Assembly: GCA_021323675.1 (NCBI GenBank)
Contig: JAJPKP010000026.1
Coordinates: forward strand, 1-64,000
Direction: 5' to 3'
Source: Pseudomonadota bacterium
Lineage (GTDB): Bacteria; Desulfobacterota; Binatia; Binatales; Binataceae
Length of the DNA: 64,000 nucleotides
Shown: positions 31,218 to 51,313 of the stretch, piece after piece
How the letters are laid out: each line of letters opens with the position of its first letter
Position numbering within the stretch: the stretch's first letter is position 1
Notes under the pieces: generated by a model
Databases searched by the model: none
Told to the model about the DNA's origin: nothing
The model's input: only the letters and a program-made list of their open reading frames with translations
Made by a program: the position numbers and the translations under genes

Positions 31218-31988
31218 TCAGCGTTCTCCGGGATCTTCGCCGGGAAAGATCTCGCGCCAGATGGCGGGATCGTCGATTGCGGCGGCGAGGTCGGTTCCGA
31301 TGGCGTCGGCGCCCTGCCACGAATCGAAGTGCAGGACCGATCGGGGCGGCAACCTGCGCGCCCATCCTTTGGTAGCCAGAACCGGGCGATCCGGGAAATC
31401 CCGCACGTAGCCGACGCAGAGATACGCGAGCGGAATCGTGCCGCTCGGGATCGAAAAGATCTCCGCGAGCGCATCGTTGCGCAGGATGCTGACCCATCCG
31501 ACCCCCAGGCCTTCCGCGCGCGCCGCCAGCCACAGATTCTCGACCGCGAGACATGCCGAGTAAATCTCGACTTCGCGGATGCTCACCTTGCCCAGCACCG
31601 CGGGACCAAAACGGCCGGGAGTGCAGGTCACCAGCACATTGAGGGGCGAGTCGAGGATGCCTTCGAGCTTCAGCGACAGGAACTTCGATCGGCGGTCGCC
31701 GGCGAACTGGTCGGCATTCTTGATGCGCTCTTCGTCGAAGACCGCGTGCACGCGGCGGCGGCGTTCGAGGTCGCGAATAATCACGAAGTCCCACGGCTGG
31801 GTAAAGCCGACGCTGGCCGCATGATGGGCCGCGATCAGCACCCGCGCCAGCACGTCGTTGGGAACAGGGTCGGGCAGAAATTCGCGGATGTCGCGGCGGC
31901 GAAAGATGGCTTCGTAGAGGCCGCGCTTGAGGCCGGCCGCAAACGACAGCACATGCGCGGGTGACTCAGGCGAATTGTTCCCCTGCAA
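31218..31988 (-). CDS. bluB: 5,6-dimethylbenzimidazole synthase
   Basis: YEAIFRRRDIREFLPDPVP..AAHHAASVGFTQPWDFVII..GLGVGWVSI; TTG 31988 preferred because the longer ORF start runs through a hairpin. Confidence 0.9.
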   Translation of the reverse strand: MQGNNSPESPAHVLSFAAGLKRGLYEAIFRRRDIREFLPDPVPNDVLARVLIAAHHAASVGFTQPWDFVIIRDLERRRRVHAVFDEERIKNADQFAGDRRSKFLSLKLEGILDSPLNVLVTCTPGRFGPAVLGKVSIREVEIYSACLAVENLWLAARAEGLGVGWVSILRNDALAEIFSIPSGTIPLAYLCVGYVRDFPDRPVLATKGWARRLPPRSVLHFDSWQGADAIGTDLAAAIDDPAIWREIFPGEDPGER

Positions 31989-32063: not shown

Positions 32064-32588
32064 TCAGGCGCCGGCCGCCTTGCGCGCCGCTTCGAGCGCC
32101 GCTTCGTAGTTGGGATGCTCGGCGACTTCCTTCACGTATTCCGCGTAGGTGACCTTGTCGTTCTTGTCGACCACGAACACGGTGCGCGCGAGCAGATGCA
32201 GCTCCTTGATCAGCACGCCGTATTTCTGGCCAAACTCGGCGGCGCGATAGTCGCTGAGCGGCGTGACCTTATCGACTCCCGCCGCGCCGCACCATCGCGC
32301 CTGCGCGAACGGCAAGTCCATCGAGATGCTGAGAATCTGCACGTCGCCGGGAAGTTTCGCGGCTTCCTGGTTGAAGCGGCGCGTCTCCGCGTCGCACACC
32401 GGCGTGTCGAGCGAGGGAACGGTGGTGATGATTTTGACCTTGCCTTTGAATTGTTCCAGCGTAGCCGGCTGAAGGCCTTTGCCGACCAGCGTAAAATCGG
32501 GAGCCTTTTGTCCGGGCTTGATTTCGGGGCCGACCAGGGTCATCGGGTTGCCCCTCATCGTAACGGCGCCTTTGCGTTCTTCCGCCAT
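32064..32588 (-). CDS. tpx: Thiol peroxidase
   Basis: GQKAPDFTLV..TVPSLDTPVCDAETRRFN. Confidence 0.95.
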   Translation of the reverse strand: MAEERKGAVTMRGNPMTLVGPEIKPGQKAPDFTLVGKGLQPATLEQFKGKVKIITTVPSLDTPVCDAETRRFNQEAAKLPGDVQILSISMDLPFAQARWCGAAGVDKVTPLSDYRAAEFGQKYGVLIKELHLLARTVFVVDKNDKVTYAEYVKEVAEHPNYEAALEAARKAAGA

Positions 32589-32724: not shown

Positions 32725-33117
32725 TCAGTGGGCGCGCATATGATGAACTATCGGGCCGATGACCGCGCCAAGCACCAGGATGCCGTTGATTGTGAAAGTG
32801 ATGATCGCGCCGGGCGCGCGCTTCTGCGGCGCGTTGATATAGCCCGCCGCGTATATGATGCGGCCGGCCAGGAACAGCAATCCGAGCGCGATCGCTATCG
32901 AGACGCTCACATACCTCGCGAACAGGAACAACGCCGGGATGAAGACGACCAGCGCCTCCATCGAGTTCTGATGCACGCGAAAGTAGCGCTCGAAGGCGGG
33001 GTCTCCGGTCGTCGCCGGCGCTTCGACGTGGTACCTGGCGCGCGCGCGGCCGACCATCGCGCCCAGGATCATGTATTCGAACAATGCGAGACCGGCGATC
33101 GCGGCCACACCATTCAT
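32725..33117 (-). CDS. MAPEG family membrane protein
   Basis: ARARYHVEAPATTGDPAFERYFRVHQNSMEALVVFIPALFLFARYV. Confidence 0.9.
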   Translation of the reverse strand: MNGVAAIAGLALFEYMILGAMVGRARARYHVEAPATTGDPAFERYFRVHQNSMEALVVFIPALFLFARYVSVSIAIALGLLFLAGRIIYAAGYINAPQKRAPGAIITFTINGILVLGAVIGPIVHHMRAH

Positions 33118-33151: not shown

Positions 33152-34006
33152 TTATTTCGCGTAGCGTGCGCGGCGTTCGGCTTCCTCCCGGTCCGCCTCT
33201 TCCTTCGACGGCCGCTCGGGCATCCATCCCTTCGTGTAGTCGCGGGTTTCCCAGGTGCGATCGTTGGGATCCCAGACATAGGGCAGCTCGACGATCGTGC
33301 CGGGCCGGGCGATGGTCTCGAATGCGCGCATCGCATCCTTGACGATTTGCCTTTGCAAATCCGGCTGGTTCGGTTTGCCGGTCTGATGGCCGAGCGGGAA
33401 ATTCAGGAACACGGCCCGCGGCGGCTTGACTGCCTGTGTAATGTCCAGCGCCGAAGTCATGCACAACGTCGGAATACCGGCTTCTTCGACTACTCGCGCG
33501 ATCAGTCCAACGGACTGATGGCATACGGGTCAGGCAGGCACCAGGTAAAAGGCGTCAACGTGCGCGCGCTTGAGGTCATCGGCGATTTGCGGCGCCAGCT
33601 CATCGCGGACCTTGCGCGCCGAGTAGATGCCTCCCATGAAACTGAAGCAGGGGTCGGACAGCGCGCCGATCACTTTTTCGCGTTCCAGTTCCTTGAGGCG
33701 TTCCCAGGGAAACACACAATTGGGATCCTGTTGCGCGTCGCGGGTCGGATAGCCGAAATGCCAGATGTTGAGATCGGCGCGCGTTGCGTCTTTGGGGATG
33801 CGCCGGTAGGAAGCGTCTTCGCGATGGAACCGCGGCTGATCGCGATACATGATGCCGCCGGAGCTGATCAGCGCAACCTTGCATTCGGCGATTGGCTTGC
33901 GAAGGGGAGTCCAGGGCGCCGAGTCGTTGGTGACCCATCGATACGGGTTGTTGTAATCGGCGTAGAGCTCGCGGGTACGCGGAATATAAGCTACCGGCAT
34001 CGCCAT
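33152..34006 (-). CDS. GrdB/PrdB-like selenoprotein with in-frame UGA read as selenocysteine
   Basis: ORF-track ORFs 33530..34105 and 33152..33466 are in the same frame; the intervening codons give VPA-(TGA)-PVCHQSVGLIARVVEEAGIPTLC. AGGAGGT precedes ATG 34006; SECIS-like hairpin follows the UGA. Confidence 0.85.
33501..33532 (-). promoter_or_regulatory. Putative bacterial SECIS element (UGA plus hairpin)
   Basis: UGA-CCCGUAUGCC-AUCAGUCC-GUU-GGACUGAU: perfect 8-bp stem, apical loop beginning with G 19 nt after the UGA. Confidence 0.75.
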
Positions 34007-34020
34007 AGACCTCCTCTCGC

Positions 34021-34791
34021 TCAAACTCCCTCGGGCGGAAACATCATCTTGCCGCCGCGAAATTCGCGCGCGACGAAATCGATAAATCCGCGGCGAACCG
34101 GCCATTCCAGGCGGCTGTCGCGCCAGTGAACTTTGCCGTCGGGTCCTTCCAGCTCGCTGGTAATATCATGAACTTTGGAGAGTGCCGCGACCAGGCGTTT
34201 GCGGTCCTCGCGGACTGCCGCGATCTTGTTCATCCGCGCCGCCCACGCCTTGAGCTGCGGCATCAGGGCAATATCAATGCCCATCGCCCCCGCCGCGGGC
34301 ACGTAACAAATCGCGGCAAGGTCGGCGATGCTGACCGAGCCGCAGAAGAAATCGCGGCCGTCCAGTTGACGATCCAGTTTTTCGAGCAGCAGGGTGAATT
34401 CCGCGCGCGCGGCCGCGGTCATCGCCCCCGCTTCGGGAACATCCTTGCGCGCCGCGGCGATCCAGTAGCCGTAACTGACGGCATCGAACGCGCGATCGCA
34501 CAGGTCTTCGATTTGCCGCATCCTGGCCCGTTCGTATGGATCGGCGGGACGCAGGGGAGGATCGGGAAACGCATCCTCGAGGTATTCGCAGATGATCGTC
34601 GAGTCGGCGATGGTGCGGCCGTCGTCCAGGACCAGCGCCGGCACCTCGGCGCGGGGACTCGCGCTGAGCAGGTCATGCTTGCGGTCGAGCGAATAGCATC
34701 GCTCGATGGGATCATACGGGATGCCTTTGAAGTCGAGCGCCATTCGGGCCTTTCGCGCGTAGGGACTGGTGGCGAATGTGAACAGTTTCAT
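34021..34791 (-). CDS. Glutathione S-transferase family protein
   Basis: MKLFTFATSPYARKARMALDFKGIPYD..EVPALVLDDGRTIADSTIICEYLED. Confidence 0.93.
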   Translation of the reverse strand: MKLFTFATSPYARKARMALDFKGIPYDPIERCYSLDRKHDLLSASPRAEVPALVLDDGRTIADSTIICEYLEDAFPDPPLRPADPYERARMRQIEDLCDRAFDAVSYGYWIAAARKDVPEAGAMTAAARAEFTLLLEKLDRQLDGRDFFCGSVSIADLAAICYVPAAGAMGIDIALMPQLKAWAARMNKIAAVREDRKRLVAALSKVHDITSELEGPDGKVHWRDSRLEWPVRRGFIDFVAREFRGGKMMFPPEGV

Positions 34792-51217: not shown

Positions 51218-51313
51218 GGAGGAGGAAGGGGCCCGGTGGCCCCACCGGTCTTCAAAACCGGCCTGGCAGCTATTGCGGCTGCCGGAGGGTTCGACTCCCT
51301 CCCCCCTCCGCCA
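51218..51313 (+). tRNA. selC: tRNA-Sec (anticodon UCA)
   Basis: 8-bp acceptor GGAGGAGG/CCCCCTCC (one A-C mismatch), 6-bp D stem GGGGCC-CGGT-GGCCCC, anticodon loop CTTCAAA, long variable arm GGCAGC/GCTGCC, T arm GAGGG-TTCGACT-CCCTC, discriminator G and encoded CCA. Confidence 0.95.

Follow-up and report, generated by a model that had tools for sequence, protein, structure and literature searches.

The stretch of DNA analysed here (the window, 64,000 nucleotides of contig JAJPKP010000026.1 from a member of the Binataceae) carries between positions 31218 and 36712 genes for an SDR, a luciferase-like monooxygenase, a glutathione S-transferase (GST), a PrdB-like selenoprotein, a MAPEG-family protein, a Tpx-like redoxin and a nitroreductase, a neighbourhood that is partly conserved around orthologues. 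As a guess from context, the neighbours suggest a link to thiol-dependent or thiol-linked detoxification. The feature at issue is a hairpin within the selenoprotein gene, lying just downstream of an in-frame UGA and read as part of the coding sequence (Table 1).

Table 1. Coordinates of the selenoprotein gene, the elements of its hairpin and other features of the window.
Feature	Positions	Strand	Remarks
PrdB/GrdB-like selenoprotein CDS	33152..34006	-	284 residues, one Sec; alternative start at the next ATG, 34000
UGA read as selenocysteine	33530..33532	-	In-frame; Sec159 if counted from a start at 34006; opens the UPVC (UxxC) motif; same UGA in nearly all homologues
Spacer CCCGUAUGCC, UGA to stem	33520..33529	-	10 nt; constant spacing in 92 aligned homologues
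SECIS stem 5' arm AUCAGUCC	33512..33519	-	From sequence, fold and homologue pairing
Apical loop GUU	33509..33511	-	G and U invariant in 92/92 homologues; third base free
SECIS stem 3' arm GGACUGAU	33501..33508	-	From sequence, fold and homologue pairing
Glutathione S-transferase	34021..34791	-	Directly upstream neighbour, outside the SECIS; adjacency kept in many orthologous loci
MAPEG-family protein	32728..33117	-	Downstream neighbour, context
Redoxin / thiol peroxidase (Tpx-like)	32064..32588	-	Context
selC, tRNA-Sec, anticodon UCA	51218..51313	+	ARAGORN; Rfam RF01852, 71.9 bits vs cut-off of 47

The encoded protein matches PF07355 (GRDB) above the gathering cut-off (48.7 vs 22 bits, 8.6e-13) and TIGR04483 (PrdB) at 9.5e-52. 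Its nearest family is that of D-proline reductase PrdB, but because its TIGR04483 score of 175.8 bits lies under the equivalog cut-off of 300 it is best described as PrdB-like and is not to be named a proline reductase. An AlphaFold2 model predicts one confident domain (pLDDT 92.9) in which Sec159 follows a strand (residues 152-156) and directly precedes the N-terminal end of a helix (160-175), a usual place for a redox residue. Sequence searches of the PDB returned no relative and a fold search of the PDB with the model returned no clear match, so that no function could be read from structure; judging from the model, this seems to be a PrdB/GrdB-like fold without a solved relative in the copy of the PDB that was searched. 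The same genome holds a second PrdB-like Sec gene (L010, G000:C63:79031-79867), 41% identical, in which UPLD replaces UPVC and the resolving Cys has thus become Asp; this UPLD subfamily is present in many genomes and keeps its SECIS.

When 57 relatives and 395 genomes from the phylum were searched for homologues, more than 100 homologous stretches came to light. Almost every one has an in-frame TGA, the sole complete one without the stop being that of genome G402. Close orthologues, from Candidatus Binataceae genomes, are 77-81% identical. Across 20 orthologues, identity to the window protein is 74% ahead of the UGA and 80% beyond it, and the numbers of substitutions at the three codon positions hardly change on crossing it (0.17/0.16/0.50 before, 0.17/0.14/0.51 after), a comparison by which a conserved, continuous coding sequence is shown to run on past the UGA.

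The means to decode such a codon as selenocysteine appear to be at hand, as the full set of selA, selB, selC and selD is present in the genome. The tRNA gene is in the window itself and the other three lie elsewhere, selB adjoining selD; the selB match is over its cut-off and carries the SelB-wing_2 and SelB-wing_3 domains. In the family to which this genome belongs, 37 of 39 genomes encode SelD itself as a selenoprotein (L123, L132-L169), and the Sec site of SelD has become Cys (TGC) in L161 (genome G032) and Trp (TGG) in L162 (genome G026), in each case with the hairpin that follows it intact. G026 and G032 belong to one genus (g15), yield no selB match over the cut-off and have no PrdB-like gene; they have apparently lost Sec decoding recently, and its targets along with it. 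These observations bear on the possibility that the UGA is read through a reassigned code or a suppressor, the hairpin then being a generic enhancer of readthrough and not a SelB-dependent SECIS. Sec at this UGA is, after all, deduced from a known pathway, which leaves such a reading some room, but it would have to account for the complete set of Sec genes, for the absence of the gene from these two genomes, which have no full-length selB and have replaced the UGA of selD, and for the Cys found at the UxxC site in Haematobacter and Roseomonas, which is the usual Sec/Cys exchange. We regard it as very improbable.

On the minus strand the order of elements is UGA, CCCGUAUGCC, AUCAGUCC, GUU, GGACUGAU, the two arms forming a perfect 8-bp stem; 18 nt separate the UGA from the loop, whose G is thus nucleotide 19 after the UGA. 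The original prediction, which had specified the UGA, the stem, a 3-nt loop with G first and the 19-nt distance, was correct to the base. The hairpin falls within the codons CAU CAG UCC GUU GGA CUG AUC, which the frame of the UGA reads as HQSVGLI. In folding, one of the checks offered with the prediction, the UGA with the following 38 nt (41 nt in all) folds at -15.8 kcal/mol (z -3.0; 1/200 shuffles as good), and the 19-nt hairpin by itself at -9.7 kcal/mol (z -4.7; 0/200 shuffles), while in longer sequence contexts the z-score drops to between -1.2 and -1.5, a small excess of stability. The two to three further pairs proposed below the stem are real in the window sequence, where the lower G-C/C-G pairs beyond a C-C mismatch form in the 41-nt fold, but are not general, as these UGC/GCN pairs are formed in 62, 59 and 71 of 92 homologues, that is in many and not in all. 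An Rfam search gave no matching family, its six matches all lying far below their cut-offs. All eight pairs arise from 144 of the 6912 synonymous encodings of HQSVGLI (usage-weighted P = 0.014), and so the hairpin of this single gene is by itself suggestive, only moderately surprising and not conclusive. What places it beyond chance is that it is conserved and covaries in homologues.

A set of 100 distinct Sec homologues shares both the position of the UGA and the register of the hairpin, and 98 of them retain seven or eight of the eight pairs; pairing is weaker in the other two (6/8 in L072, 5/8 in L087). The stem is absent in this register from the Sec homologues of Firmicutes (L118-L120) and Photobacterium (L121) and from L068. 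The original prediction had made its own standing depend on whether other UGA-containing orthologues have the stem; they do, with at least 7/8 pairs in 98/100, and pairing is kept by compensatory changes. For 92 distinct sequences, paired cells amount to 95.9%, against 85.5 +/- 0.7 when shuffled and 9-44% when the register is slid; the covariation score is 0.318 against 0.120 for shuffled alignments, with 0/500 shuffles as high; and both-sided compensatory changes occur at five of the eight pairs. RNAalifold, given no structure as input, recovers the same helix. When a covariance model of the hairpin was scanned over the genome it found this gene and the paralogue on C63, all other matches having E values of 0.13 and above; because selD was not picked up, this shows that the model is specific to the gene and is not a general SECIS finder.

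The way in which the pairs are kept can be followed at the level of codons. His CAU goes with Ile AUN and CAC with Val GUN (CAU..AUC becoming CAC..GUC); Ser UCC goes with Gly GGA, Thr ACC with GGU and Ala GCC with GGC (UCC..GGA becoming ACC..GGU); and Gln CAG goes with Leu CUG, CAA with UUG, and Glu GAG with CUC. In each coupling, a base whose change is synonymous is tied to a base of a different codon whose change alters the amino acid. When the stem columns were masked in building a protein tree, the two sides of the His3-Ile1 pair change 15 and 13 times singly with only 17 changes of pair state, and phylogenetically independent contrasts run in the same direction 6-7 times and in the opposite direction 0 times (median p 0.016); for Gln3-Leu1, four changes are joint out of 4+4. 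Among 21 close orthologues, a single codon is used throughout at exactly five of 113 invariant residues, and these are the five codons of the stem whose paired base is degenerate; they include the unpreferred UCC (18% usage) and GGA (19%), fixed in 21/21, whereas the loop Val and the third base of Ile, which falls outside the stem, vary freely. The stem is thus shown to be under selection at the level of RNA, and the claim that its codon choice is constrained by RNA structure is upheld both by the covariation and by the five single-codon residues.

A stem equally conserved in Cys-containing orthologues had been named as grounds for refuting the original prediction. The stem is lost in both of the Cys homologues available, a sample of two diverged and related sequences from plasmid records, 61% identical to each other: that of Haematobacter has 4/8 pairs at -2.0 kcal/mol and that of Roseomonas 5/8 at -1.0 kcal/mol, against 7/8 pairs and -9.7 kcal/mol in their nearest Sec relatives. 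Divergence alone does not explain this loss, since the stem is kept by Sec homologues whose distance from the window gene is similar or greater (30-38% identity). Searches of the 395 genomes of the phylum with both Sec and Cys queries found no Cys homologue. The Cys genes lie on alphaproteobacterial plasmids, L116 (Haematobacter) beside cobO and L117 (Roseomonas) beside selO. In the homologue of G402 (L076), the Sec site is Gly (GGA) and the stem is intact in a genome that retains selB and tRNA-Sec; Sec may have been lost here only recently, or the sequence may contain an error.

A second hairpin of this kind follows the UGA of selD in the same genomes. It reads GGUCC-GGC-GGACC (or, more generally, GGUCC-G(G)N-GGACC), with 17 nt between UGA and loop, and at three of 103 invariant residues of SelD one codon is used in all 37 genomes, namely GGU (10% usage), CCG and GAC, all three of them within the post-UGA hairpin. 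With this in hand, the idea that the stem of the PrdB-like gene is a chance palindrome, HQSVGLI happening to be encodable as a stem that codon bias and protein conservation then preserve, can be weighed. It draws on the 144 favourable encodings and on the conservation of the peptide in close orthologues, but it is contradicted by the covariation, in which synonymous bases follow the amino-acid changes of a partner codon (Ser/Gly, Thr, Ala, His/Ile/Val). Unpreferred codons are moreover fixed in all close orthologues, other peptides (CTRTVGVL and HETVSLV) still form the stem, and the same codon pattern recurs in SelD at a different place; we give the idea next to no credence. Just as hard to credit is a genuine stop or a decaying pseudogene, with the hairpin as a terminator or other regulatory element, which we rejected: standard tools do close the ORF at 33530 and treat the two sides of the UGA as separate ORFs, but identity and codon periodicity continue unchanged after a UGA whose position is shared by nearly all the more than 100 homologues, no U run follows the stem and no terminator is called there.

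The hairpin is thus almost certainly the SECIS element of a selenoprotein gene, because coding continues past the UGA, the genome has the Sec genes, the hairpin conforms to the bacterial SECIS consensus described below, its pairs covary, its codons are fixed in close orthologues, the stem is lost in the two Cys homologues and selD provides a parallel. By analogy with the known pathway, SelB loaded with Sec-tRNA-Sec would bind the stem-loop 10 nt downstream of the UGA through its C-terminal winged-helix region and, competing with release factor 2, would deliver Sec to the ribosomal A site, after which the ribosome would melt the stem and translate it as HQSVGLI; in the product, the Sec/Cys pair would presumably form the redox centre. 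It is tempting to go further and to propose that the SelB of this lineage recognises a bulge-less apex, CC-G(U/G)N-GG, common to selD and the PrdB-like gene, and that the PrdB-like protein, instead of being a subunit of D-proline reductase, acts on its own as a new selenoenzyme in thiol or glutathione metabolism, but we hold this combined proposal only tentatively and would put its chances at somewhat under even.

A SECIS is of course an element of a well-known kind, and what is new is a very well supported further example in a PrdB-like gene. A literature search combining Binatota with selenocysteine found no paper on the subject, the word being seen only within references. The case is one of the clearest demonstrations from sequence alone of a stretch of bacterial gene selected jointly for its peptide and its RNA fold, with about 100 natural variants of one SECIS in which synonymous sites follow amino-acid changes in the partner codon. 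It also draws attention to a PrdB-like selenoenzyme that standard annotation cuts off at the UGA and whose GST/redoxin/nitroreductase neighbourhood is conserved, and offers a large comparative set for the requirements of SelB in a lineage whose hairpins do not have the E. coli bulge.

It is instructive to set the hairpin beside systems already described. The bSECIS model calls for a stem of 4-16 bp, a loop of 3-9 nt, a UGA-to-loop distance of 16-37 nt and an energy of -7.5 kcal/mol or lower, with a G at loop position one or two and, in most cases, a G or U next to it (PMC13188914), and the window hairpin, in frame, with 8 bp, a 3-nt loop opening with GU, 18 nt and -9.7 kcal/mol, agrees with this consensus on every count, as had been supposed when it was likened to bacterial SECIS elements in general. 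Even the TVSL clade, in which the closing C-G has become C-A to give a 5-nt C-GUG-A loop, is still allowed by the model. As in E. coli fdhF, the stem-loop begins about 10-11 nt after the UGA and presents G-U in its apical loop. E. coli SelB, however, needs the bulged U17 of the fdhF SECIS (PMC8659212), whereas the window stem has no such bulge in its 5' strand, and its loop is GUN with no extra bases, placing the G one position nearer the UGA; recognition by SelB is a matter of experiment for fdhF, and for the window hairpin we infer it.

Few selenoproteins are commoner in marine metagenomes than the UxxC proteins of PrdB type, of which surveys of the Sargasso Sea and GOS listed 42 and 235 Sec members, respectively, with predicted bacterial SECIS elements (PMC1088965, PMC2398784). 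The window protein resembles these as a PF07355-related UxxC selenoprotein, a likeness drawn at the level of family and not of subfamily, but differs in coming from a Binataceae-like soil lineage and in lying beside GST, MAPEG, redoxin and nitroreductase genes. It is homologous to the clostridial D-proline reductase PrdB of TIGR04483 over residues 30-245, with Sec at the same place, but has UPVC where the clostridial protein has UGTC and, at 175.8 against 300 bits, is no equivalog, and the clostridial genes have no hairpin in this register. A further parallel is the selD SECIS of the same genomes, which has another stem, and a loop read in another frame, but in which CC-GGN-GG matches the CC-GUN-GG of the PrdB-like gene, so that the two have in common the apex CC-G(U/G)N-GG with a 3-nt loop at nearly the same distance from the UGA (17 vs 18 nt), as expected if one SelB recognises both hairpins.
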